Shown piece after piece: positions 33,549 through 47,390 of a stretch of 64,000 nt of DNA; the stretch's first letter is position 1; the number at the start of each line of letters is the position of its first letter. This DNA is from Dechloromonas sp. ZY10. Its GTDB lineage: Bacteria > Pseudomonadota > Gammaproteobacteria > Burkholderiales > Rhodocyclaceae. The DNA is taken from NCBI RefSeq assembly GCF_041378895.1, contig NZ_CP144212.1, forward strand, positions 1,535,501-1,599,500. The letters run 5' to 3'. Both the position numbers and the translations under genes were made by a program. The notes beneath the pieces were generated by a model. It was not told where the DNA came from, searched no databases, and saw nothing but the letters and a program-made list of their open reading frames with translations.

Positions 33549-36311
33549 TTACTTAACGGCCGGGAGCACTTCCGTCTCATAGCAAGCCCCGATATACCGA
33601 ACAACTCTCGCCCGCAAAGAGGGCGCCTCCCTACTGACGGCTTCCTCAAGGGCTTGTCGCTCCACTCTCCCCAGCAGGAACGCGCACCGCGTCAGCTCAG
33701 CCAACTCATCCAAGGGGACATTGAGGGACTCCATCAGTCGCTTTGTCCGCTCGACGATGCTGGAGCATTCTGCATGGTGCGCTTGCGGGTCATTTTCCCC
33801 TGAAATGTGGGAAGCATGGTCGGCAACCCAATAGTGCAGAGGCCTCTCGATATCGTGACGAACATTGCTGTCATCCCACGGATGGTCTGCATTGAACCAG
33901 GCCAGGATCGAAGCATAAGGTTTAGGAATCGGGAACGTCGTCTGACCTGCGATCAAATCCAAAGTGAAGAAAATTGGTGCCACGATCCGCAGCGCACGCG
34001 GTACGCCACCTTCACCACACCAGGCCACTACCCGGCCGACCCCGCGACGACCGGCCGCCTCCAACAACTCCGGCAAGATGGATTCTGGGGGAACTCGGTT
34101 AAAACCGCGAAGCACCACATGACAGGGGATGCTCTCCGCCTGGCATTGTTCAAGGAATGCACCGAGCGTGCTCGGGGCAAGTTGGGTGCGACAAAGTGCG
34201 ATTGGGGCGTTAAGGAGATCGGCCCAGCCAAACATGTCGCCTGAGACAGAGACCTCCACGGAGTTCCCTCCCGCCAGGGTATCGCTGACCAGTCCCTGAA
34301 GCACGCCCGCCTGAGATCCCGAGATGCTGACGAAGCCTGCCGCCAACATTGTGCTGATCACCGCCTTGCAATAGTTGGAAGAGACACCGGAGTAGAGCGA
34401 GTACAGCTTAGTCGCTACAACCAGTCCCTCCGCATCCGAGATTGGGGAGCCGTCAACGGTCGGCACCGGCAGGGCCGACACAGTAGGCGTGGCATTGTGG
34501 ACGGCGGGAGCCATGCCAGCATTAGGTGCCAGAAAAGGTAGCAAGGTTGCCACCTCTGCCAATTTGGCGAATCCATTTTGTGTGGTGCGTTCGAAGGCGC
34601 GTTGGAGTTCCTTGGTGAGGGCTGCCGCAGTCGACTCGTTTTGAGCACGTATCCTCTTGAGGGTTTCCTCCTGGGTAGCCCGTACGGCCTTCAACTCCTC
34701 AATCTCTTCACGTATCCTGTCGGCCTCCTTGCGATACGTGCTAACCAGTTCCGCCTTCCGGTCCTCGATGGCTTGTTGGATATCGGGACGCTGCAGAACG
34801 CGCTCCACCACCTGTTCCGCCAAATCGCGGCCCAATTCCACAGAGGAGACGAGTTCAATGGCACGCATCGCCGACCGCCGAATGCCGAGCCCCATGAACT
34901 CGGCGGAGACCGACTCTTGCAGTCTGCCGATTTGCCCCTTGGTTAGCCTCGGCACATCTTCCAAATCCTTTTGCTGCTTGAGCAGCCTACCGATCAATAC
35001 CTCCGGCGGAGCCCAATCGTAATTTTCTGCCGCTGCTGGCAGCGCGGATAGGATCAACGATTTGCCTGCAACCTGATGGACGACGATCGAGCGATAAGCT
35101 GCGACGCTGTTTTCGAGGGGCTGGACACTGGAGCGGGGAAGCAAGGCAAGACCATCCTGGAGCAGAAACAAGGTTGATCCGGCTCCACGGTGGATGTGGG
35201 TTTGCACCCAGTTACGAACCTGATCGGGATGGTCAGAACGATGGGGTACTTCAAAAACGGTCAGCGCGCGTCCGACCACCTGCTGGACAACATACTGGGT
35301 CTTTTCTGAAGGATTTTCACGTGCAATGTCCAGCACCCAGTCGGTCTGATCGTGATTGACCATTGCACCAGCCCGGGCAGGAAACAGGATGGCCGAACCG
35401 GTCCCAGGAAATGCGATTAGGGCATCCTTGGGCGTGACCTCAAGCCATTCGCCATCACGAAAAACCCCGAAAATCGAAAAAAAACGTGTCCCTTGCGCCG
35501 TCTGATTTGTGAAATGCCCGAGGACGCGGACACTTCCATCAGAATCAATCGGACTAGACACTGTGGCACGGCGGCAAGACACCACCTGGACATCACTTTG
35601 GGGACTTGAGTCGGATCGACTCACCTCAATATTGCCAAATCCGGCTAAGCGCTCCAACAATGCTGAGGGCACATCATCACTGGTATCCAGCAGTTTGCCC
35701 AAGAGAGCCTGGTCGTTTCTGCCGGCGGCGAATGCAACTGCGATACTGAGTGACACCAGCTTGGTAGGGTGCCCAGGTGAAGATGTACCCCTTACCAATC
35801 CGAGCGCATTGTCGATATCCGCTGCCTCTATGCCTTCGCCCTGGAACGACACAGGAGTCAATCTGGTGTTCTCATTCTCCCTCGTGGGCGAGAGGAAGGC
35901 CAAGATTTCCGGAGCATCCGAAAGATCGGCGAGCCCTGCGATGAGAGCCAGCCAGAGAGGTCTTGTGGCTTCATCTGCCCATTGGTCAGGCGGCATGTCC
36001 GCCAGGGACTTCAGCGCTTCTGGGAGTGAAGCGGCATCAGTAAGCATGCCGTGCCGAGTCAACCATTTCAGGAGAATCCCTATCCATTCGCGAGGATGAA
36101 CGGAGAAGAGTTTTTCAAAGCACTTCTGCGGATCGGACGGCGGGTTCGAGGCCTGAGGGACCCGTGCGGGAATCAGGGCCGCCTTCGACTCCTGCATGAA
36201 TTTGAAGACCAGATGGTCGGGAATCACAGCCTTCACCATGGCTTCCCAACGAAGCAACCCTGCCGAGACGCGGCTTCTCATCTTATTTGTCATAGCTGTG
36301 TTCTTGTGCAT
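33549..36311 (-). CDS. 920-aa defence-operon protein, coiled coil plus possible degenerate AAA region
   Basis: Function not recognised. Residues of about 505-580 form a strongly charged coiled coil (ESTAAALTKELQRAFERT at its end). The C-terminal third resembles the order of an McrB-like AAA module: a VSISGSQ strand-loop where a P-loop would sit, then VVLRGFNRVPPESILPELLEA. The lysine and Ser/Thr of a working Walker A are absent. The gene starts 19 bp after the 949-aa gene and ends 14 bp before the helicase. By position and size it fits one of the unassigned druF/druG slots of type II Druantia. An alternative start is Met7. Confidence 0.75.
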   Translation of the reverse strand: MHKNTAMTNKMRSRVSAGLLRWEAMVKAVIPDHLVFKFMQESKAALIPARVPQASNPPSDPQKCFEKLFSVHPREWIGILLKWLTRHGMLTDAASLPEALKSLADMPPDQWADEATRPLWLALIAGLADLSDAPEILAFLSPTRENENTRLTPVSFQGEGIEAADIDNALGLVRGTSSPGHPTKLVSLSIAVAFAAGRNDQALLGKLLDTSDDVPSALLERLAGFGNIEVSRSDSSPQSDVQVVSCRRATVSSPIDSDGSVRVLGHFTNQTAQGTRFFSIFGVFRDGEWLEVTPKDALIAFPGTGSAILFPARAGAMVNHDQTDWVLDIARENPSEKTQYVVQQVVGRALTVFEVPHRSDHPDQVRNWVQTHIHRGAGSTLFLLQDGLALLPRSSVQPLENSVAAYRSIVVHQVAGKSLILSALPAAAENYDWAPPEVLIGRLLKQQKDLEDVPRLTKGQIGRLQESVSAEFMGLGIRRSAMRAIELVSSVELGRDLAEQVVERVLQRPDIQQAIEDRKAELVSTYRKEADRIREEIEELKAVRATQEETLKRIRAQNESTAAALTKELQRAFERTTQNGFAKLAEVATLLPFLAPNAGMAPAVHNATPTVSALPVPTVDGSPISDAEGLVVATKLYSLYSGVSSNYCKAVISTMLAAGFVSISGSQAGVLQGLVSDTLAGGNSVEVSVSGDMFGWADLLNAPIALCRTQLAPSTLGAFLEQCQAESIPCHVVLRGFNRVPPESILPELLEAAGRRGVGRVVAWCGEGGVPRALRIVAPIFFTLDLIAGQTTFPIPKPYASILAWFNADHPWDDSNVRHDIERPLHYWVADHASHISGENDPQAHHAECSSIVERTKRLMESLNVPLDELAELTRCAFLLGRVERQALEEAVSREAPSLRARVVRYIGACYETEVLPAVK

Positions 36312-36330
36312 ATTCTTGCGTGCTCAAATG

Positions 36331-39180
36331 TCATATCTGATTGCGCCGAAGCCATGCGGGCTTACCCAGCTTCCGTAAGTCACGGGCAAGCCAATGGCGC
36401 GAAAGTGCCGTATCTTTCTCTTCGAGAGTGACGCTCTGCGCCTCCATGGGCAGCCACGCCGACAACGAAGCCCACATTTGGTAGCCTTTCCCCCCGAGGA
36501 ATAGCAGCCTACCAGTTTGGTCAATAGCGACTCTCCCCCCGCCCCATAAGAGCCACCATTTGGTGAAGGCCGGCGGGGGTGAAGAAACCTTGCGTGCGAA
36601 GCGGAGGTTGCCGTGGCGATCAAGTTCAGCGAACGCCTGTCCTTGGGAATGGAGGGATATCGTGTGGGCCCACCATTCACTTCGGGTCCGCCAAAAGCCA
36701 GGTCCGGCCAACTTGACCCAATAGACGCACGATCGGCGATCAGAGCTGCGGAAGATATCTCCCATGCTGGGCTGCTCAACGTTACTAACAGCCTCCCAGC
36801 GATATGACCTTGTTTTCCATTGCTCGTAAGACGAGTTACGAAGTGGGGGCAGCGTAGAATCGAACTGAATTCTTATATCGCGGGGGTTCGCCAGGCAAGC
36901 ATCCGCGCAATCAGTCTCGATCCGCCCCACGCCCAAGAGTTGAGCAAGGGCAGCCACTCTCGGAACGTCGGAAAGGTGGAATTCAATTGCCCCGATCGAT
37001 GCGCTATAGCCGGGGGACACGAGCTCCTGAACACGTTCGCCATCCAGGAGAAACTGGCTTATAAGGTGGTGCTCGTGCTTTGTGACAAGTCCAATGAGGC
37101 GCGCCCGCACACCGTCACGCAGGCCCCGGACCGCCAGCACACGCCCCCCCAGGGCAAAGGCAGCTTGGCGATATGCTGCCCCACTTAGCCGGGTAACCCA
37201 ATGCCCTGCGCAAAGCAGCGTAAGGAGGGGCCAAACGGATCTCGCGTTTATCGTTGTCACTGGCGACACGTGCTCCAGTAGCCCCCTCGTGGACAAATTC
37301 CGCGCATTGGCATACCTGCAGCTGAGGACGTCATTAAGCCAGCCGAGGACCTCGCCCCAATCCGCTTTACAGGACTCTTCCGCGGAAGGTGCAATCTCGT
37401 CAGGACAGAAACCTAAGCGCAAGGCTGACCATAGGGCAGACGACGATTTCCATTCGCGGCTGGCAGTCCCCATGGTCGGAGCCGCATCCCGCGCAACTGT
37501 CCCGTGCCATGGAACGAGGTCGCCATCCGGCCCGTCGACCGCCCATTGGTCATGCCCATCCGACGGGACTTCGAACCGCACCGGGGCATGACTGATGCAG
37601 TTGAGGGTCTTTTCCACAGCCAACCCATCGTCCCGCATGAGGCGCACTCGAAGCCTATCCGACATCGGCGGTAGATGGGATTGGTCCGCCGGAATGTACC
37701 AGTCGTTATCATCAGATTCAGCCAGTGCTCCTGAGAAAACCTCGTTGCCTTCCATATTGAGAAAGCTGAACTCACCCGTCTGGATCGCATCCCCCGAAAA
37801 CCGAATACCAGTAGCGGGGTTCAGGACCAACGAAGAGCCCCACCAAGCGCCCCCTCGAACATGCACGCTGTAGGATCGAGCCAACGACTCAAAAAGGGCA
37901 AACACCCGGTCTCTAGTGGCGCGGTACAGGGATGGAATGGCTTTCCGGTCAAGCCGAGGGAATTCCACAACTGCCCAGCCTTCCCAACTGACTACATCCG
38001 GGGTAAGGCGTACAGCCAGCTTGCACTCTCTGGCCGCTTGCGAAATCCGTATTGCCCGCCCCCGGTTCACTAGGATGCAGACCCGCGCACCGTCAAAATA
38101 GGTGGGCTTGGTCTGCAAACGCCCATAGTCATCTGTGACGAATAGCAGGAACCCTTCGGAAAGGCTGCGCCCTTCTGCAGAGCGGCGAAAGCCATCCGCA
38201 CCTGCACATACCTGCAGGAGAAGGGTGGGCGTTACAGGGTTGCGGTCACGGGGAAGCTGCTGACAGAAGCCATCAATTTCCTGCCCGGGCGAAGCACAAA
38301 ACCAGCGTGCCAATCGCTGCGCCCCAACCGTGTCTGAATAAAGCGCCAATTTGGGTTCGAGCAAATCGGAGATATCAAGGCTGATGTTGTAACGCCCTTG
38401 ACGCCTGCACTCACGCTCTTCGTGTTCCCAAGTTAAGTCCTGGATAGCCCCCCAGAACGGTGAGTCAGCCGCATCTTCGTAACGCCCCTGATAATAGAGA
38501 TCGCGGAATGCCTGGAACTCCTCGAGAAATGACCCGGTGAAGTCGGCTCGGTGTCGTTCGATCTCGGCGATCACGTCCCCAAAAGAACGTCGTTGGCCAG
38601 CCTCCTGGAGGAGATTAGCCAACCTGCTTTCGTCCCTATAGCCGGGAAAGGCTAGGCGCTTAGAGTAACCGATGATGGTCTCACGCCCGGGGTCCGGGAG
38701 AAGGAGCCGACGGCAATCCTGGAGTTTTTCGGCTCGATGATCAGCCCACCGCTTTAGTTGCCGCCACATCACGGGGAGATTGCCGAAATTGGGGCGCGGA
38801 GCATTGCTCACATGCGCGAATAGGATCGCGAAGCGCTCGCGAAAATTCCCTTCGTGAACTGTAAGCTCATCTGCCGTTCCCGCGAGCAAGGTTGCGTAGA
38901 GGCTGGCGAAGAAGCTTGGCAGCTGCATCACATCCAATGCCCCCCTTCCGGCGATTCCGTCAAACCACTGAGGGCTGGAATGCGGGCCGTTCCCAAAGCA
39001 TTGCAGAAATGCCGTTTTGACGGCACGACTCTCCTCGTGCGATGCATGGGCAAGCATTACCAGCATCCGCTCAGAAGCGGTGATGCGCTTGATCGGTAGA
39101 TTGCGCTTGGCTGGGTTCAGGAAAATCGCGTTAACTAGCGCGACATTCCAGTCTTGGTACTTCCACTCCTTCCAGCTCAA
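36331..39180 (-). CDS. 949-aa defence-operon protein of unknown function
   Basis: First gene of the five-gene operon. No catalytic motif is seen. The N-terminal part is helical and Trp/Arg-rich (SWKEWKYQDWNVALVNAIF, FAHVSNAPRPNF); the middle and C-terminal parts look beta-rich with many tryptophans (WWGSSLVLNPATG, WKTRSYRWEAVS). The start is a TTG at 39180 preceded by GGGAG at good spacing; an in-frame TGA sits just upstream, so no earlier start is possible. It probably fills the other druF/druG-type slot. That assignment is by context only. Confidence 0.72.
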   Translation of the reverse strand: MSWKEWKYQDWNVALVNAIFLNPAKRNLPIKRITASERMLVMLAHASHEESRAVKTAFLQCFGNGPHSSPQWFDGIAGRGALDVMQLPSFFASLYATLLAGTADELTVHEGNFRERFAILFAHVSNAPRPNFGNLPVMWRQLKRWADHRAEKLQDCRRLLLPDPGRETIIGYSKRLAFPGYRDESRLANLLQEAGQRRSFGDVIAEIERHRADFTGSFLEEFQAFRDLYYQGRYEDAADSPFWGAIQDLTWEHEERECRRQGRYNISLDISDLLEPKLALYSDTVGAQRLARWFCASPGQEIDGFCQQLPRDRNPVTPTLLLQVCAGADGFRRSAEGRSLSEGFLLFVTDDYGRLQTKPTYFDGARVCILVNRGRAIRISQAARECKLAVRLTPDVVSWEGWAVVEFPRLDRKAIPSLYRATRDRVFALFESLARSYSVHVRGGAWWGSSLVLNPATGIRFSGDAIQTGEFSFLNMEGNEVFSGALAESDDNDWYIPADQSHLPPMSDRLRVRLMRDDGLAVEKTLNCISHAPVRFEVPSDGHDQWAVDGPDGDLVPWHGTVARDAAPTMGTASREWKSSSALWSALRLGFCPDEIAPSAEESCKADWGEVLGWLNDVLSCRYANARNLSTRGLLEHVSPVTTINARSVWPLLTLLCAGHWVTRLSGAAYRQAAFALGGRVLAVRGLRDGVRARLIGLVTKHEHHLISQFLLDGERVQELVSPGYSASIGAIEFHLSDVPRVAALAQLLGVGRIETDCADACLANPRDIRIQFDSTLPPLRNSSYEQWKTRSYRWEAVSNVEQPSMGDIFRSSDRRSCVYWVKLAGPGFWRTRSEWWAHTISLHSQGQAFAELDRHGNLRFARKVSSPPPAFTKWWLLWGGGRVAIDQTGRLLFLGGKGYQMWASLSAWLPMEAQSVTLEEKDTALSRHWLARDLRKLGKPAWLRRNQI

Positions 39181-40768: not shown

Positions 40769-42202
40769 ATGCAAATAAGGCACCCATCCCGTTTGGCACA
40801 GCAGATTGCTGTCTTGTCCTTGGCTGTCGGCATGTCTTGGCAGGTTGCGGCTTCGAGCACCGAATTCGGTGGCGAGTGGAAAGGCACCTTCGAATGCGGT
40901 CCCATGCTGGTCGGGACGGCTGGTGCTGGCTTGTCGCAGTCCATGACCATGACGGTCAGGCAGGGCGGGGTGCAGACCAATCGAGCTACGGACAAATATC
41001 GAGAGGAACTGCGTGGCAGGATCGGTGCTGACAAATCAATCCAGCTTGAAGGTGAGGGACACTACACGGCGGACAGCTTCCCCCCTTGGCAAACCAAGCT
41101 GGCCGGTTCGTTCTCCGGCAATCGGCTCATGGCAAGTGGCGCGGTGTTCGGGCTGGATGGCACCAAGCGGCGTGACTGCAAAGCTGACCTGACACGAGTT
41201 GCTGGCACCAGTGAGCAGGTTCAGGTTCATGCTGCGGCTCCACAAGTATCAAGCTTTTACTCCAACAGCTACGAGCTGGTGAAGTCACTGGAGGATGGCC
41301 GTTCCGGCAAAATCGCGTACAAATCGGTGAGCCGGAACACGACAGTAGGTGATCTCAAGTCAGGCAGGGTCTTCCTGAACGACACGGTTCATGCGGTGCT
41401 GTCACTTCCCTCTACCGGCAAGGCACCTTACCCGGTCATGGTGATTGCACATAGCTCGGCAGGTGTACAGAACAAGGATCGGGATTGGGCGAGGTGGTTT
41501 AATGAGCAGGGCATTGCAACCTTGCTGGTGGATACCTTCACACCTCGTGGCATTACCCAGTCGGCAACAGATCAGTCTGTCCTGTATTACGGGGCAACCA
41601 TCGGTGAGTACCTGGTGGCACTCAAGCTGCTGGCAACTCACCCGGCAATCGACATCAAGCGAGCAGGGATCATCGGCTTCTCCAGAGGCGGTGTAGCGGC
41701 AATGGCTACCGGCATCGAGTCAATCCGGCGAGGGACCATAGGCGGTGACTTGAAGTACGCCGTGCATTTCCCGGTCTATGGCGGCTGCACCTATCGAGCA
41801 GATCGGTGGACAGGTGCTCCCATGCACCAGTTTGTCGGCAGTGAAGATTCCTACGAGGACATTGAAATCTGCCGTGGCTGGCAGGAACAGGCAAAGGCCA
41901 AAGGTGTCGATGCAAACTTGACGGTATTTCCCGGTGTTCATCACGGCTTTGATAACTCGGATCAGATGGCATTGCGGCAATTCCCCAATGCCGAGTACTG
42001 GAAGGACTGCAAGGTCGAGTGGAACGTCGATGCAGGCCAGTTCAGAAGTGCACGTCACCCCTATTGGCACAGTGACAACTCGATGGTCGAGGAAACTGCG
42101 GCATGCAAAAACAGAGGGGTGACGGTCAAGTATGACGAGAAGGCAACGGCTGACTTGAAAGCGGCAGTCAGAGAGAAGCTCAAGCAAGTCGGATTTATTT
42201 GA
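40769..42202 (+). CDS. Exported alpha/beta hydrolase (dienelactone-hydrolase-like)
   Basis: A 477-aa protein with a signal peptide (LSLAVGMSWQVAAS) and an N-terminal domain of about 130 residues of unknown type (EFGGEWKGTFECG). An alpha/beta-hydrolase domain follows. The nucleophile elbow is GFSRGG, with a later acid candidate (GSEDSYED) and the catalytic histidine in VHHGFD, as in dienelactone hydrolases. It is a second secreted hydrolase on the island besides the beta-lactamase-fold one. It runs convergent to the Rep-like gene with an 8-bp 3' overlap. Confidence 0.85.
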   Translation: MQIRHPSRLAQQIAVLSLAVGMSWQVAASSTEFGGEWKGTFECGPMLVGTAGAGLSQSMTMTVRQGGVQTNRATDKYREELRGRIGADKSIQLEGEGHYTADSFPPWQTKLAGSFSGNRLMASGAVFGLDGTKRRDCKADLTRVAGTSEQVQVHAAAPQVSSFYSNSYELVKSLEDGRSGKIAYKSVSRNTTVGDLKSGRVFLNDTVHAVLSLPSTGKAPYPVMVIAHSSAGVQNKDRDWARWFNEQGIATLLVDTFTPRGITQSATDQSVLYYGATIGEYLVALKLLATHPAIDIKRAGIIGFSRGGVAAMATGIESIRRGTIGGDLKYAVHFPVYGGCTYRADRWTGAPMHQFVGSEDSYEDIEICRGWQEQAKAKGVDANLTVFPGVHHGFDNSDQMALRQFPNAEYWKDCKVEWNVDAGQFRSARHPYWHSDNSMVEETAACKNRGVTVKYDEKATADLKAAVREKLKQVGFI

Positions 42203-42710
42203 CCGGCTTGATCGGTCCTCCTGTTGCTGGCAGGTCGAGCATATTGCTGGTGATGAAGTTTTCATAGGAGAACGGACGGCTGACGTGCTTCGTTGCATAG
42301 ATGGCAACCCAGTTCAGGTCATCGGCTCCCTGCTTGATAGGCTGGATGTCGGCAGTACCGGTGGGAACGATCTTTTTCCATATCGGAGTTGCAACCTTGG
42401 CAAACCAGTCATGGCGGCTCTCATGTACCCACATGGGCAGGTGGTAATGCAGATGGCCTGTCTTCGTGTGCTCAGGGAATGCAATGAAGCGGAAGAGCTG
42501 ATCGAGCTTCAAGGCAGAGAAGGTCTTGCTGTGGAAGACACGGCGGATCACATCGAGTGACCACATACGCAGGCGTTTCTGCCCACGATGCAGGTCGTAG
42601 TCGTTGTGGAAATTCAGCGTTACCCAATGAGTGTGGGTAGTGCTGGTGATCATGTTGATGAAAGCGGGGCGGAGTTGCAGACCACTTTCGGTGACTCGGT
42701 AATGGTTCAA
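42195..42710 (-). CDS. HUH-type Rep/rolling-circle initiator-like protein
   Basis: A 171-aa protein with the three ordered motifs of one-tyrosine HUH endonucleases: motif I THWVTLNFH (27-35), motif II GHLHYHLPMWV with the metal-binding H86-L-H88 or H88-Y-H90, and motif III Y138-A-T-K141 (YxxK), where Tyr138 would be the nicking residue. The frame opens at a TTG (42710) and lacks extra N-terminal sequence, so it may be 5'-truncated or frameshifted. It could nick and replicate an excised circle or be a remnant of a plasmid or phage. No helicase domain is attached. Confidence 0.75.
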   Translation of the reverse strand: MNHYRVTESGLQLRPAFINMITSTTHTHWVTLNFHNDYDLHRGQKRLRMWSLDVIRRVFHSKTFSALKLDQLFRFIAFPEHTKTGHLHYHLPMWVHESRHDWFAKVATPIWKKIVPTGTADIQPIKQGADDLNWVAIYATKHVSRPFSYENFITSNMLDLPATGGPIKPVK

Positions 42711-43144: not shown

Positions 43145-43579
43145 TTACGCCAACGTCAGCACTGCGGCGAACGGGGTTTCTTCGTCGTAGGATGCTTTGA
43201 CAAAGTTCTGCAGCGCCGTGACGGCTTCAACCTGCGGCACCGTCAGTGACAGGGTGGCTTCGTTATCTTCCACAAGTTCTCCAAGGCGGAACATCACCCC
43301 TTGGTGGAGGTGCAGGCCTTTGCCTGCCAGTGAAGCGATCCCGCCATCCGCTAGGGTCGGTTGAGTGATGCCAGGCAATGCACCTTCGGACATGTTGGTA
43401 ATTTCGTCAGTGGTCAGCAGTGCCGTGTACTCGTTACCGTCCCACTGGGCTTTGAACAGACGGAAGTTGTCAGTACCCAGAACTTCCAGCAGATCGCGTG
43501 CTTGCTCTGGCGCAGAAGCCATCGAATGCTGAGCAATGAAGGCGTTGATGTTCAAGGTGGTTTGCAGATTGGTAAACAT
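43145..43579 (-). CDS. Hypothetical protein behind a tandem tRNA-like leader (144 aa)
   Basis: Unknown family. I use the ATG at 43579 (MFTNLQTTLNINAFIAQ) because a good ribosome-binding site (AAAGGAA) precedes it; the 16 codons upstream run into the leader. The protein is acidic and soluble, with a hydrophobic, Gly-rich middle (GGIASLAGKGLHLHQG). It is the last of four minus-strand genes that each follow a tRNA-like leader; here the leader has two tRNA-like folds in tandem. Confidence 0.65.
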   Translation of the reverse strand: MFTNLQTTLNINAFIAQHSMASAPEQARDLLEVLGTDNFRLFKAQWDGNEYTALLTTDEITNMSEGALPGITQPTLADGGIASLAGKGLHLHQGVMFRLGELVEDNEATLSLTVPQVEAVTALQNFVKASYDEETPFAAVLTLA

Positions 43580-43647
43580 AATGAGTTCCTTTGAATAAAG
43601 TAGCCCTCGCGGGCGGAGTGCCCACAAGTTGCCGCGGGTGCGGATGT

Positions 43648-43720
43648 GCCGAATAAGCTCGGTGGCTGGTGCCTTTCAAGGGAGTCGAACCCAAGAATCC
43701 CTACCGCCTAGGGAAAGGCA
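43648..43720 (-). ncRNA. tRNA-like leader element 4b, with CCA end and GC hairpin
   Basis: On the minus strand GCCTTTC pairs perfectly with GAAAGGC, followed by discriminator A and CCA, as in a tRNA acceptor stem. Inside are a D-arm-like hairpin (CCTA-GGCGG-TAGG) and a T-arm with the canonical loop TTCGACT between GGG and CCC. There is no anticodon arm. A hairpin with CCGA/TCGG follows at once (43648-43666). The element ends 69 nt before the start codon of the 144-aa gene. Confidence 0.6.
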
Positions 43721-43722
43721 AT

Positions 43723-43774
43723 TGGTGCGCATTCAGGGAATCGACCCTTAGGAAAGGAACCCACCAGGAAGCGC
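43723..43774 (-). ncRNA. tRNA-like leader element 4a, with CCA end
   Basis: On the minus strand GCGCTTC pairs with GAA-T-GCGC (one bulge), followed by ACCA. The inside has a D-loop-like TGGTG between CC and GG and a T-arm AGGG-TCGATT-CCCT. It sits directly before element 4b with 2-3 nt between them, like a pair of tandem tRNAs without anticodon arms. Confidence 0.6.
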
Positions 43775-43787
43775 AAGGAGTTTGGCC

Positions 43788-43816
43788 GTGCCCGCGCATC
43801 TGCATTGCGCGAGCAC
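43788..43816 (-). repeat. Hairpin between the 296-aa gene and the tandem tRNA-like leader
   Basis: GTGCTCGCGC and GCGCGGGCAC (minus strand) pair over 10 positions with one G-U pair and a 9-nt loop. It lies 10 nt past the stop of the 296-aa gene. No T-run follows, so it may be a transcript-stabilising or processing hairpin rather than a terminator. Confidence 0.55.
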
Positions 43817-43825
43817 TGAGCGGTA

Positions 43826-44716
43826 TCAAAAAAGCTGATTGGTGATTAACACGCCCCCCGACTTGCGCAGGAAGCGTTTTTGCCCCCAGATCAGATTCCG
43901 AATGCGGTCACTCATCTCTGTGGCCCCCTCGTCGGAGTCGGCTTGTTCCACCAGCCAATCACACAGGGGCTGGGTCAGGAACACCCCAAAGCGTGGCACG
44001 TCTGCATGGGGTAGGAAGTCTTTCCAGTCCATGTCATCGGTGCCATCGCCAGCGCTGCCGTTGGCGTGCATCGACAGCACGCTGTTCCATTTCCAGAGCA
44101 GCCGTGCTTCGGGGGATGTGTCGAAGTCTTCCTCGATGTTCAGCCGGGATGCGGTCATGGCCTGATCCAACAAATCAGCAAGCTCCTTCAACTGGCTGGA
44201 ACTGAGTGTGGTCAAGCCCACGGTGCCTTTGCGCAGCTTACGGAAAAGGCTGGCATGCAATTGGATCATCCACGCCGGTACAGCCTCATCGCCCAAACGG
44301 CACTCGATCAATGCCCACCACTGGGCAACATCGCCATGACACAGCGGCCATGCTGTTTCAGCAATGGTGGCTAGGTGGGGCGCGTTTGCTACTTGAGTCT
44401 CCTGATCGAACAGGCAGGTAATGACCAGCGGAGTCTTCAAGTTAGCATTTGCCGCTGCTGCAAGTTCTTGTGTGCCAAACGTTTCAGCAGAGCAGCCTGT
44501 GACATACAACGGAGGCTGGTCTGGGTTGTGCTGCTGGCACAGATGTAAAAGCTCCTGCATGCAATCGGGAGATGGAATGTGTGGGAAGCTGGGCCGGGTG
44601 AGTTCAGCCCACATTGGGCTTGGCAGTGAGTTAATCCAAGTGGCGGGGACTACCGCAATGGGATTGGTGTCATCTCGGGCCGTGATTTCAAAGGCACGGC
44701 AGAATTTTTCAGGCAT
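43826..44716 (-). CDS. Hypothetical protein behind a tRNA-like leader (296 aa)
   Basis: Unknown family; start at the ATG at 44716 (MPEKFCRAFEITARDD). Trp-rich and mostly helical in the second half (WWALIECRLGDEAVPAWMIQ, LTTLSSSQLKELADLLDQAM). No signal, membrane helix or catalytic motif is evident. It is third in the four-gene array and starts 54 nt after its tRNA-like leader. Confidence 0.65.
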   Translation of the reverse strand: MPEKFCRAFEITARDDTNPIAVVPATWINSLPSPMWAELTRPSFPHIPSPDCMQELLHLCQQHNPDQPPLYVTGCSAETFGTQELAAAANANLKTPLVITCLFDQETQVANAPHLATIAETAWPLCHGDVAQWWALIECRLGDEAVPAWMIQLHASLFRKLRKGTVGLTTLSSSQLKELADLLDQAMTASRLNIEEDFDTSPEARLLWKWNSVLSMHANGSAGDGTDDMDWKDFLPHADVPRFGVFLTQPLCDWLVEQADSDEGATEMSDRIRNLIWGQKRFLRKSGGVLITNQLF

Positions 44717-44769
44717 GGTTCAACTCCGTTTTGGGGTGCAACTCATGGCTTAAAACCACAAGCTGAGCT

Positions 44770-44837
44770 GCCGGAACATCCGGCTACCGGTACGTCTTCA
44801 GGGGAATCGAACCCCAACATGCTCACCAGAGAGACGT
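44770..44837 (-). ncRNA. tRNA-like leader element 2, before the 296-aa gene
   Basis: On the minus strand ACGTCT pairs with AGACGT; inside are CTC-TGGT-GAG (D-like) and a textbook T-arm GGGG-TTCGATT-CCCC (44801-44815). The end reads ACCG instead of ACCA. A perfect GCCGG-ATGTT-CCGGC hairpin follows (44770-44784). Upstream the transcript carries GGCATTTTTCTTCCCGT, which is also found before element 1, so the leaders are homologous over more than the fold. Confidence 0.65.
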
Positions 44838-44902
44838 AAAAAACGGACGGGAAGAAAAATGCCACGCCCAAAAATGTATACAACCATTGAAAGGAATCTT
44901 TA

Positions 44903-44930
44903 GCTCACCGTGGCAGTTGCTACGGTGAGC
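44903..44930 (-). repeat. Perfect 9-bp hairpin after the 157-aa gene
   Basis: GCTCACCGT and ACGGTGAGC flank a 10-nt loop, directly downstream of the 157-aa gene stop (44945). On the minus strand it is followed by TAAAGATTCCTTT rather than a clean T-run, so it may be a weak terminator or a 3'-end stabiliser. It matches the position of the hairpin after the 296-aa gene. Confidence 0.6.
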
Positions 44931-44944
44931 CATTCATCAGCGGC

Positions 44945-45418
44945 TTAACCCCAGTGCACGACTGCGCAGTAAGAGCTGTCAACGATTTGATTGCCATTCA
45001 GGAAGCTCTGAAACTCAAGGATATTTTCCGGAATGTTCACCTTGGTCTCGATGCCGTATTCATCGCGGAAAAGATCGTAGGCATCGAACCAAAACTTGAT
45101 TGTTTCTTCCAGGCGATTAATGACTGAGTTGTGGATATACAGCCCATGCTTCTCGCAATGGGCGAGATCGCAGTCAATCGAACGGGGCATGGAATCCCCA
45201 TCCAAGACACCATTGGTATGCGCATGCAAGGTCTTGCGATCAAACAGTACCGAGCGATATTCATCGGCGGATTCTTCGTCATCGGATTGGGCGATGAGGC
45301 AGAAATCCGGGCCTAGCAAGAATTGCAGCAAATTGCGTGCGCTAGCTCCGTTGAAGAACTCATTCTTGGATTGGTCCAGCGAAGAGACGCGAACAGGGAA
45401 AACGATTTTCTTTGACAT
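44945..45418 (-). CDS. Hypothetical protein, paralogue of its upstream neighbour (157 aa)
   Basis: Unknown family. The start is the ATG at 45418 (MSKKIVFPVRVSSLDQ) with GAGAG upstream. It is a clear paralogue of the 154-aa protein at 45582-46046: both begin MSKKI and share GA-ARNLLQ, GP-FCL, DR--L---T-GV-G, LYIHNSVI/LHIHHSVI and DEYG. Together with their matching leaders they look like a tandem duplication of a leader-plus-gene unit. Confidence 0.68.
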   Translation of the reverse strand: MSKKIVFPVRVSSLDQSKNEFFNGASARNLLQFLLGPDFCLIAQSDDEESADEYRSVLFDRKTLHAHTNGVLDGDSMPRSIDCDLAHCEKHGLYIHNSVINRLEETIKFWFDAYDLFRDEYGIETKVNIPENILEFQSFLNGNQIVDSSYCAVVHWG

Positions 45419-45467
45419 AAGAATTTCTCTCAAAAATTTCCACGAAATGCGATTGCACATCGGGGAC

Positions 45468-45535
45468 GCCGAAAATCTCGGCAGTCGGTACGTCTTCGGG
45501 GAATCGAACCCCGGCAAAACCACCAAGGAGACGTC
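45468..45535 (-). ncRNA. tRNA-like leader element 3, before the 157-aa gene
   Basis: On the minus strand ACGTCTCC pairs with GAAGACGT (7 of 8), enclosing a D-like CC-TTGGT-GG, a linker TTTTGCC and the T-arm GGGG-TTCGATT-CCCC (45498-45512). The end is ACCG. A hairpin GCCGA-GATTT-TCGGC follows (45468-45482), then GTCCCCGATGTGCA, which is also found after element 1. It ends 50 nt before the start codon. Confidence 0.65.
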
Positions 45536-45581
45536 ATTTCGGGCGTATTGGTTGTTGCTTATTGGCCCGAATGGAGAGGGA

Positions 45582-46046
45582 TCAGCTCCAAGTGGCTACA
45601 CCAGCGAAGGCATGATCATTGGAGTCATGGGTCCAGGCGAAGTGCAGCAACTGATTTATCTCGTTCAGCTGCGGGGAGGGGGCACCAAAACCGTATTCGT
45701 CTTGGAAGAGTTCATTGGTGTTCTTCCAGCGCTCCCGGCTTTCGTCTAGGCGGTCAATCACCGAGTGGTGGATGTGTAGGCCACCGTTGGCTGAAATTGC
45801 GCTTGGGCTGAAACGAATTGTCTCGGGAAGAAATGCACCAATGACGCCGGCGCTGGTCATGAGTGTCAACGCTTGCCGGTCGTACAGCTCGTAGCTCGGG
45901 TTATCTCCATCGGCAGATAGTTGGAGGCAAAACTCGGGGCCGTAGAGCGCTTGCAGCAAATTGCGTGCGGCGGCGCCAGTAAAGACAATGCTGTCAGATT
46001 TGTCGGCAGCGGTGAAGCAGAGGGAAAAATGGATTTTCTTGGACAT
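45582..46046 (-). CDS. Hypothetical protein, first gene of the tRNA-like-leader array (154 aa)
   Basis: Unknown family; start at the ATG at 46046 (MSKKIHFSLCFTAADK) after GAAGG. Paralogue of the 157-aa protein downstream, with the same order of conserved blocks. Soluble; contains conserved histidines in LHIHHSVIDRL. The intergenic region above it (46167-46325) probably carries the promoter of the array, but no consensus boxes stand out. Confidence 0.68.
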   Translation of the reverse strand: MSKKIHFSLCFTAADKSDSIVFTGAAARNLLQALYGPEFCLQLSADGDNPSYELYDRQALTLMTSAGVIGAFLPETIRFSPSAISANGGLHIHHSVIDRLDESRERWKNTNELFQDEYGFGAPSPQLNEINQLLHFAWTHDSNDHAFAGVATWS

Positions 46047-46097
46047 GACAATACCTTCGATCAAAATTTCCGCAACGTGCAGCTGCACATCGGGGAC

Positions 46098-46166
46098 GCC
46101 GGAAGCCGGCTGTCGGTACGTCGTCAGGGAATTGAACCCTAGCAGTTAAGCCCACCGAGGAGACGT
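46098..46166 (-). ncRNA. tRNA-like leader element 1, before the 154-aa gene
   Basis: On the minus strand ACGTC pairs with GACGT, enclosing a D-like CC-TCGGT-GG, an 11-nt linker and the T-arm AGGG-TTCAATT-CCCT (46126-46140). It ends ACCG. The hairpin GCCGG-CTT-CCGGC follows (46098-46110), then GTCCCCGATGTGCA and a GTGCAGCTGCAC palindrome. It ends 52 nt before the start codon. Confidence 0.63.
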
Positions 46167-46325
46167 ATGATCGAACGGGAAGAAAAATGCCACGTCCTAA
46201 CTTTGCGCTATCAACTACCCACAGCGAAAGTTCTGACATACTGACATGAAATAATGTTCGTGTCAACAACTGGATGAAAATGTCAACCCGGCTTGTTACT
46301 TTTTTGCCACGGTCCAAATACTATC

Positions 46326-46353: not shown

Positions 46354-46950
46354 GTGGCTGAGTTTGGACAAGCAAGGGTTCCCACTGAAGAGGAAATGAA
46401 GCGCCTGTACCGGGTAGCCAAGGGCGGCATGTACCCGGCCAGGAACACGGCAATCCTGATGGTCAGCTATAAGCTGGGCCTTCGTGCCAAGGAAATTGCA
46501 GCACTGCGTATCTGCGATGTGCTGGATGACAGGGGCAAGCTGAAGGAGGAAATCCACCTTACCGGCAAGATGACCAAGGGCAACAAGCAACGGGTGGCTT
46601 ACCTCACCAATCCGGCACTGCGAGCAGCCCTGACGACCTTCCTCGGAGAGCGGCAAGAGCAGGAGACTTGCCTGTTCAATGTTCTGGCACCACTGTTCAA
46701 GTCGCAGAAGGGTTCTGCGTTTTCACCCAACACCATGAGCCAGTTGCTGACCGGGCTTCATGAGCAGGCTGGCGTGATCGGTGGACGATCCCATAGCGGC
46801 AGACGTTGGTTTGCAACCGAGTTGATCGGCAAGGGCGTTGACCTCAAATCCGTGAGCGTGCTGATGGGCCATGCCTCCGTGTCTATGACTGCCAAGTATG
46901 CGGAGGCCAACCCCCAGAAGCTGCGCCGGATCACTGCGGAGCTGGTCTGA
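46354..46950 (+). CDS. Short tyrosine recombinase (catalytic domain only)
   Basis: A 198-aa phage-integrase-family protein. The catalytic set is visible: Arg in GLRAKEIA, Lys in TGKMTKGNK, the HxxR of RSHSGRRWFAT, His in LMGHASVSMT and the nucleophile Tyr in AKYAEANP. The N-terminal core-binding domain is missing; the frame starts at a GTG right before the catalytic domain. Such short forms occur on plasmids and integrated elements, where they may resolve multimers. It overlaps the next gene by 1 bp (TGATG). Confidence 0.88.
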   Translation: MAEFGQARVPTEEEMKRLYRVAKGGMYPARNTAILMVSYKLGLRAKEIAALRICDVLDDRGKLKEEIHLTGKMTKGNKQRVAYLTNPALRAALTTFLGERQEQETCLFNVLAPLFKSQKGSAFSPNTMSQLLTGLHEQAGVIGGRSHSGRRWFATELIGKGVDLKSVSVLMGHASVSMTAKYAEANPQKLRRITAELV

Positions 46951-47390
46951 TGGGTGTTGATGTCAAGCAGACCTACCGTCTGTATCAGGCACTGATGCGG
47001 GTCACGCCAGAGCTTGCGAGCGTGGATCGAACCTGCACCGTGAGGCTGGCAGGGGGATTGCCGCTACGCTGTGATGTGCTGGAAGTTGGCAACGACTTCA
47101 GGCGGATTGCTCTCGGGCACTACTGGATGCTTGCCACTGGTGATCAGGTGCCGGATGTGATTTTCGAGATTTGTGTCTTCTTCGACTGGGAGCTTGCCGA
47201 AGCGGTGTCGTACCACTTTGGTGGGCGCGTTGAGGATGCTTACCCGGTTGATGGTGGGCCTCCGGTGCTTTCGATCCATCGGCGGATCAATCGGCTTCTG
47301 GAGCGTTGGCTGCTATTGCTGGCGCAACAGGGGTACTGCATGGGCACTGAAGCAGGCAGCAATGTGCTGCCTGTGCTCGGTAGCCCCTGA
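46950..47390 (+). CDS. DUF1249-like protein
   Basis: A 146-aa protein whose C-terminal half (LAEAVSYHFGGRVEDAYP, then HRRINRLLERWLLLLAQQG) follows the pattern of the DUF1249/YqiB family (VLSYQ, R-Y-YPN, LNRFL-EWL). Its start overlaps the stop of the tyrosine recombinase, so the two are co-translated. The role is unknown. The family assignment is from pattern recall and is moderate. Confidence 0.6.
   Translation: MGVDVKQTYRLYQALMRVTPELASVDRTCTVRLAGGLPLRCDVLEVGNDFRRIALGHYWMLATGDQVPDVIFEICVFFDWELAEAVSYHFGGRVEDAYPVDGGPPVLSIHRRINRLLERWLLLLAQQGYCMGTEAGSNVLPVLGSP

Follow-up and report, generated by a model that had tools for sequence, protein, structure and literature searches.

A tRNA-like structure without an anticodon arm recurs between phage genes and in a four-gene array of Dechloromonas sp. 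ZY10: a candidate intercistronic processing signal

Why should the genes of a small bacterial array each be preceded by a fold that resembles part of a tRNA? We asked this of a 64,000-nucleotide stretch of Dechloromonas sp. ZY10 (NZ_CP144212.1, positions 1,535,501 to 1,599,500; hereafter the window). On its minus strand, four leaders hold five tRNA-like structures (TLS; copies T1, T2, T3 and the tandem pair T4a and T4b, Table 1). A first-pass annotation had placed five such folds there, and all five lie where it put them, none with an anticodon arm. We find that the window copies score as members of a class of TLS carried by phages.

In tRNA numbering, each copy comprises an acceptor 5' arm (1-7), a GGT-bearing D-like region of 14-18 nucleotides (nt), a T arm (49-65) and an acceptor 3' arm (66-72), and it ends in A73-C-C-G/A, with ACC present in all five. 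The T arm abuts the 3' acceptor arm, with one extra base in T3. The canonical T loop first ascribed to every copy stands in four of them (TTCRAYT) and fails in T4a (GTCGATT), and the T stems of T3, T4a and T4b are imperfect. The acceptor 5' arm reads ACGTCTC in T1-T3, GCGCTTC in T4a and GCCTTTC in T4b, each with a matching 3' arm; the 3-bp GCC/GGC acceptor reported earlier is, in T4b, a 7-bp GCCTTTC/GAAAGGC helix. GC hairpins, each with a bulged or mismatched base, adjoin T1, T2 and T3 directly on the 3' side, as had been claimed for every leader, and the hairpin after T4b is weaker. From TLS to ATG we measured 70-88 nt, longer than the 50-70 nt given before. T1 is preceded by a divergent integrase rather than by a stop codon, and T4a is followed, after a 3-nt spacer, by T4b.

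Variation among the five copies respects this fold. Across the alignment, 86.4% of 59 cells are paired, against 79.2 ± 2.1% in 500 shuffles, none of which reached the observed value, and four of the seven acceptor pairs carry changes on both sides, bearing out the earlier observation that the acceptor varies while its pairing is kept. Known RNA families did not account for the copies: ARAGORN called no tRNA or tmRNA (transfer-messenger RNA) in the 64-kb window, and no Rfam family reached its gathering score there, tRNA (RF00005) and tmRNA (RF00023) included. The mascRNA-menRNA model (RF01684) gave T2 18.3 bits (E 2.6) against a gathering score of 42.5, and tmRNA models produced, below threshold, a 10.7-bit cyano_tmRNA fragment at T2 and 17-nt T-arm segments at two phage copies. 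As a separate observation, the Plastid-ycf2 5'UTR family of Rfam (RF04354) matched TLS repeatedly but weakly on the opposite strand (22.3-26 bits, cut-off 65.7), at 45488-45534 (+) of the window and, in loci examined outside it, which are labelled with L numbers, at L115 2759-2802 (-), L133 7151-7194 (+), L099 6645-6690 (+) and L115 6696-6740 (-).

To find relatives, we used search patterns that join a GGTG loop to a T-loop box at a spacing too short for an anticodon arm. In IMG/VR these patterns found contigs whose acceptor arms often pair. Because the viral loci were chosen by patterns containing them, the letters of the T loop and D loop are not independent evidence; acceptor pairing, genomic place and the 3' hairpin are. 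Among the matches listed, an acceptor helix of at least six Watson-Crick pairs is present in 15 of 60 de-duplicated non-tRNA sites, against 2.0 expected when partners are swapped, two of the 15 using another spacing. A looser first version of the control gave six or seven of seven positions paired in 35 of 66 sites against 14.6, again among the matches listed.

Covariance models then linked window and phages in both directions, and this reciprocity is the main result of the analysis. A model built from the five window copies only (R1) returned 25 matches at E <= 0.3 in 20 chosen phage loci, the best at 50.4 bits. All 25 were judged to be TLS, although two are partial or short and two overlap ARAGORN calls (L121:1324, called tRNA-???, and L101:1936, which is ambiguous because it is called tRNA-Arg). 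In the alignment of these 25 phage TLS, which leans towards R1 because it was fitted to that model, 94.8% of cells are paired against 62.4 ± 2.1% in shuffles, the covariation score is 0.664 against 0.137, and 90 cells are changed on both sides. Conversely, a model built from the 25 phage TLS with the window excluded (R2; 20 hand-chosen training loci, some of the 25 rows being shifted or partial matches) recovered five of five TLS copies in the window at 24.0-57.5 bits and nothing else there at E <= 5. The 2-bp D mini-stem covaries as well, with T-A in 28 and C-G in 19 cases against T-G in 3 and C-A in 1 (74 sites, duplicates and possible tRNAs included). A search for homologues with compensatory changes was the check that the annotation had set for its claim, and it yielded many phage contigs and strong covariation. 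The annotation's claim thus withstood that check. As an RNA element the TLS class is well supported, and it appears to be a widespread structured RNA family of bacterial viruses for which Rfam 15 has no entry.

Two further features of the phage material deserve mention. A recurrent TLS variant has the form AAGTAAT or AAGTGAT, CTGGTGAC, ... CTTACTT or CTCACTT; a single spare base separates its T stem from the acceptor, and the sequence downstream is similar from locus to locus (L107, L108, L110, L125, L149, L155, L163, L165 and similar loci). In L061, L090, L092 and L094, phage tRNA arrays hold anticodon-less TLS among real tRNAs, and in L094 an inverted repeat follows the TLS (by eye).

Where do the phage copies lie? 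We searched 27 chosen viral records in full with R2 at E <= 0.05, checking the weak matches only in part against tRNAs. Thirteen of the records gave at least two matches; the 60.5-kb record of L133 had ten, the L115 record six and the L185 record five. L265, which belongs to the L133 record, shows nine TLS that separate successive small genes, some of them overlapping the stop codon, in the same anatomy as the window array. We scored 56 phage sites for a stop codon within -16 to +30 nt and for a ribosome-binding site (RBS) with ATG 10-80 nt downstream of the TLS. An upstream stop was present at 38 sites, an RBS-ATG at 35 and both at 28; on the opposite strand of the same sites the counts were 5, 1 and 0, and at random places 7.8, 6.4 and 1.3. 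The median stop lies 11 nt before the TLS (48 sites). Copies do precede phage genes, as the annotation had foreseen, at a distance shorter than its 50-70 nt (median 42 nt to the start codon, found at 35 of the 56 sites). The 35 nt after the TLS fold better than mononucleotide shuffles (mean z -1.58; z below -1 in 37 of 56). In L062 and L085, read by eye, the upstream hairpin is common to both and the downstream hairpins show compensated changes.

The site set began from 61 hand-picked rows of at least 27.6 bits, with duplicate contigs and the partial matches in L174 and L205 excluded and with weaker rows of L265, L266 and L268 also taken in. For the stop and start medians, five rows overlapping ARAGORN calls were dropped; for the 56-site set, L101:1936 and L121:1324 were restored and the near-duplicates L157 and L199 dropped. 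The 56 sites are not independent, because L105/L124 (identical), L123/L198 and L162/L193 (near-identical) were kept and many sites come from the same phages. Among nine phage proteins encoded after a TLS, four have no PHROG match, and the others include an anti-restriction protein, ATPases and a polymerase processivity factor.

The strand-bound intercistronic place together with the covariation thus identifies an RNA-level element. As a class, the TLS is a top-half tRNA mimic, made up of an acceptor stem, a T arm and a minimal D-loop hairpin with GGT, between a stop codon and the next start, mostly followed by a hairpin, whose conserved part is the stack of acceptor and T arm with the D-loop/T-loop elbow. 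The window array shares this layout (intercistronic, on the coding strand, hairpin then start codon) at longer distances than in phages.

We also searched bacterial genomes. Among 388 sampled genomes of the phylum, R2 at E <= 1e-5 and under strict filters, with 15 candidates scored in each genome listed, had a match in that of the window alone; the TLS therefore looks less like a chromosomal feature than like one of viruses or mobile elements, and the annotation's framing of a system "in a bacterium" has to be changed. At E <= 1e-3, 46 of 250 genomes of the order had an R2 match. We inspected 29 of the 45 besides the window's own and found 28 tRNAs and one tRNA-Leu 3' fragment (by eye). R1 matched the window's own genome and eight more among 250 of the order, all eight being ARAGORN tRNAs, and the T1-T3 acceptor pattern matched genome contigs twice, at a tRNA-Lys and at a tRNA-Glu-like fragment (by eye). 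The gene 1 protein occurred only in its own genome among 300 of the order; the alignment of the paralogous genes 1 and 2, represented by two short peptide patterns in each collection, had no match in viral or genome contigs; genes 1 and 3 had no match in plasmids; and the array DNA gave only 34-39-base matches in plasmids and phages, at E 0.2 or worse. A small-gene array near an integrase relative on a Legionella fallonii plasmid held no TLS.

Ten records of cultured phages were searched with R2 at E <= 0.01. There was no match in phi80, TM4, SPO1, PaBG, LuckyBarnes or Montesquieu; the EPS7 match and one JustBecause match are tRNAs, and the other JustBecause match is weak and shows no TLS. TripleJ and Kukla each gave one TLS-like match of 19.5 bits outside annotated genes, at 44980-45036 after the last gene and at 46090-46146 between genes 83 and 84, respectively. 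In both phages a long GC inverted repeat follows the capsid gene (TripleJ, L272 6983-7069; Kukla, L275 3068-3155; by eye), standing where their relative L080 has a TLS.

What could such an element do? The reading we consider best, at about an even chance, is that the TLS may serve as an intercistronic processing signal that presents the acceptor, T arm and elbow module of a tRNA to the host's tRNA-maturation enzymes. RNase P, and possibly RNase Z, would read it as the end of a pre-tRNA; RNase P would cut on the 5' side of the acceptor stem, RNase Z on the 3' side, or both would act. A polycistronic message would thereby be split into single-gene messages, and the TLS or the hairpin behind it would protect the ends that the cut creates. 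We take an RNase P cut at TLS position 1, after which the downstream message would begin with a stable fold, as the leading model, because bacterial RNase P reads the acceptor/T-arm module. Alternatively, RNase Z, which prefers a U just after the discriminator, may cut after position 73 and leave the following hairpin to cap the new 5' end. Passages of PMC11143913 and PMC10731613 describe cleavage by RNase P of model hairpins made of acceptor stem, T stem and T loop at the canonical site, with P RNA contacting the T loop, as well as cleavage of pre-tmRNA, phage RNAs and some mRNAs. PMC10731613 also describes pairing of the 3' RCC with L15 of P RNA, and a passage of PMC7479834 places the action of RNase Z before CCA addition. 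With their ACC, the window copies are better suited to RNase P than the majority of phage copies. We infer cleavage at the TLS from anatomy of this kind. Somewhat below an even chance, we would extend the proposal to many bacterial viruses: they may run a tRNA punctuation in which series of TLS at gene borders are cut by the host's RNase P and RNase Z, giving single-gene units, a device that the defence-adjacent island of the window would have taken over.

Several results weigh against processing or against the tRNA-like fold itself. Phage tails deviate from RCCA, so that the anatomy would suit RNase P only in part: the tail positions are covered in 22 of the 25 aligned copies, of which 17 have C74, 12 U75, 5 C75 and 10 A76, and an earlier hand-framed set of 38 had C74 in 22, U75 in 23 and A76 in 19. 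Since phage TLS mostly lack RCC, the RCC contact is weakened; their frequent C74-U75-A76 is awkward for RNase P and would suit an RNase Z cut after position 73. The tRNA-like fold does not stand out in minimum-energy folding. Single-sequence energies are unremarkable (z = +0.51, -1.12, -0.23, -1.43 and -0.67 for T1, T2, T3, T4a and T4b), the whole TLS is visible in the minimum-energy structure of T3 only, and the tandem T4a+T4b reaches z -2.90 against shuffles, but through a fold that pairs the two copies together. Both models also match real tRNAs, R1 at 25-31 bits and R2 at up to 38.2 bits, above T1 (38.1), T4b (37.3) and T4a (24.0). Weak matches therefore need a tRNA check, and because only T2 and T3 stand clear of tRNAs by score, the case for T1, T4b and T4a depends also on the missing anticodon arm and on the layout that they have in common.

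Genomic context, too, is not uniformly favourable. By longest open reading frame (ORF), strand agreement is weak (upstream 32 same and 17 opposite, downstream 33 same and 20 opposite), which we tentatively put down to spurious ORFs in GC-rich DNA. In L265, promoter-like hexamers lie between TLS and start codon (by eye), so the TLS would sit at the 3' end of the upstream gene. These hexamers recur across L265 1800-7000, some -10-like boxes lying only a few nt before the ATG, which suggests leaderless messages there. At the capsid-gene junction, none of four relatives of L080 has a TLS; three have a different inverted repeat (by eye) and the fourth an 18-nt gap.

The last result and the tails would also suit an element that is never cut. 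The annotation had offered punctuation or translation control, and a place between stop and start codons fits either. An uncut TLS could insulate, its elbow fold and hairpin stabilising mRNA ends or blocking ribosome or RNase, or it could bind the ribosome or EF-Tu-like factors. We regard this as a possible but distinctly less probable account. Its constant place with a hairpin following, the other inverted repeat that three L080 relatives carry at the same junction and the phage tails that are mostly not RCCA all speak for it, but a mere stem would not need a T loop, a GGT loop and the 7+5-bp geometry of a tRNA. That geometry is partly built into our search patterns, yet it holds outside the D-loop pattern, for example in most of the nine L265 copies.

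Two explanations dispense with a role in the message. The TLS could be DNA-level recombination boundaries, tRNA-derived attachment sites of the adjacent integrase, with the four genes as an integron-like cassette array. tRNA genes are common integrase targets, a short, divergent tyrosine recombinase adjoins the array, and flank similarity switches at the TLS: the 36 nt upstream are 76% identical between T1 and T3 (at most 60% in 200 shuffles) and 42% between T1 and T2, whereas the downstream leaders are 72% identical between T1 and T2 and 53% between T1 and T3. Recombination or conversion therefore probably happened there, and we still hold the boundary explanation to be improbable: phage copies keep to the coding strand and to the starts of genes, scanned surroundings of integrase relatives (L034-L044, L098) contain no TLS, and what the changes preserve is RNA pairing, not a fixed core sequence. 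Least credible of all, at a very small probability, is that TLS are decayed phage tRNA genes that have lost their anticodon arms and any present function. Phages do carry many tRNA genes, the T-loop box resembles that of a tRNA, three of the five window copies have imperfect T stems and two phage copies overlap ARAGORN calls. Decay, though, would not leave the acceptor paired where both of its sides have changed, nor would it set copies between a stop codon and an RBS-ATG in front of one gene after another. As to the flanks themselves, the 36 nt before T1 and T3 (46167-46202 and 44838-44873, minus strand) share GGCATTTTTCTTCCCGT though the genes behind them differ, and T2 and T4 are without it.

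The surroundings of the array (Table 1) indicate that it probably lies in a mobile or defence island. The divergent recombinase scored 33.0 bits with the integron integrase model TIGR02249, whose cut-off is 265. An overlapping DUF1249-like gene (below the Pfam cut-off) follows it within 46354-47390 (+). Two Legionella plasmids show the same arrangement, a related recombinase with an overlapping gene behind it, there annotated WGR. The replication gene is possibly a remnant.

Table 1. Features of the TLS array and of its neighbourhood, in window coordinates
Feature	Position	Strand	Detail
TLS copy T1, before gene 1	46113-46166	-	R2 38.1 bits
GC hairpin, one bulged base, after T1	46095-46114	-	segment -11.3 kcal/mol
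Gene 1, 154 aa, uncharacterised protein	45582-46046	-	paralogue of gene 2, 36% identity
TLS copy T2, before gene 2	45486-45534	-	R2 57.5 bits
GC hairpin after T2	45465-45486	-	segment -10.6 kcal/mol
Gene 2, 157 aa, uncharacterised protein	44945-45418	-	
TLS copy T3, before gene 3	44787-44837	-	R2 46.4 bits
GC hairpin after T3	44766-44788	-	segment -11.4 kcal/mol
Gene 3, 296 aa, uncharacterised protein	43826-44716	-	
TLS copy T4a, first of tandem pair before gene 4	43723-43774	-	R2 24.0 bits, weakest copy
TLS copy T4b, second of pair; 7-bp acceptor, ACCA	43667-43719	-	R2 37.3 bits
Weak hairpin after T4b	43649-43662	-	
Gene 4, 145 aa, uncharacterised protein	43145-43582	-	
Tyrosine recombinase, catalytic domain only, divergent from array	46354-46950	+	PF00589 2e-26; XerC/D-like, below cut-offs
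Replication protein, filamentous-phage G2P/ORF2 type, TTG start	42195-42710	-	PF23343, 2.5e-07
DruG-like (1.7e-70) and DruF-like (1.4e-146) genes side by side	33549-39180	-	Druantia-type defence system near array

How does the TLS compare with known systems? Among the open-access PubMed Central (PMC) papers listed by text searches aimed at it, there was no description of it, and we found no counterpart to it as an RNA family and phage device. Integron attC sites are likewise repeated, foldable, one per gene and beside a tyrosine recombinase; TLS instead precede their genes, are tRNA-shaped and are common to phage regions that were not chosen for an integrase. The mascRNA-menRNA family, a tRNA-like domain processed by RNase P at the 3' ends of animal long non-coding RNAs, resembles the TLS as such a domain on a longer RNA, and T2 scores far below its gathering score. 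The tRNA-like domain of tmRNA has an acceptor and T arm and, like the TLS, no anticodon arm, but no message or tag was found in TLS. In mitochondrial tRNA punctuation, real tRNAs between the genes of a polycistronic transcript are proven cutting marks. The TLS shares the tRNA folds between genes and differs in being an anticodon-less mimic with a putative cut, in phages and one bacterial island. Pre-tmRNA is an RNase P substrate according to a passage of PMC10731613. M3 RNA, C4 RNA, T4 gene 32 and one polycistronic mRNA are given as RNase P-cleaved in passages of PMC11143913 and PMC10731613; as described there, these are RNase P sites in phage or polycistronic RNA, single cases rather than a repeated, covarying family. 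The tRNA-like sequences of phage 0305phi8-36, mentioned in a figure legend of PMC2147016, may be the same thing as TLS. If TLS are not cut, a tRNA elbow kept before gene after gene calls for another explanation. If cutting were proven, the mechanism would be a variant of tRNA punctuation not described before, and TLS would provide compact, portable processing tags and natural mRNA substrates with which to ask what RNase P does in mRNA processing. Phages would then shape their messages with the essential enzymes that mature the tRNAs of the host, much as real tRNAs serve mitochondria.

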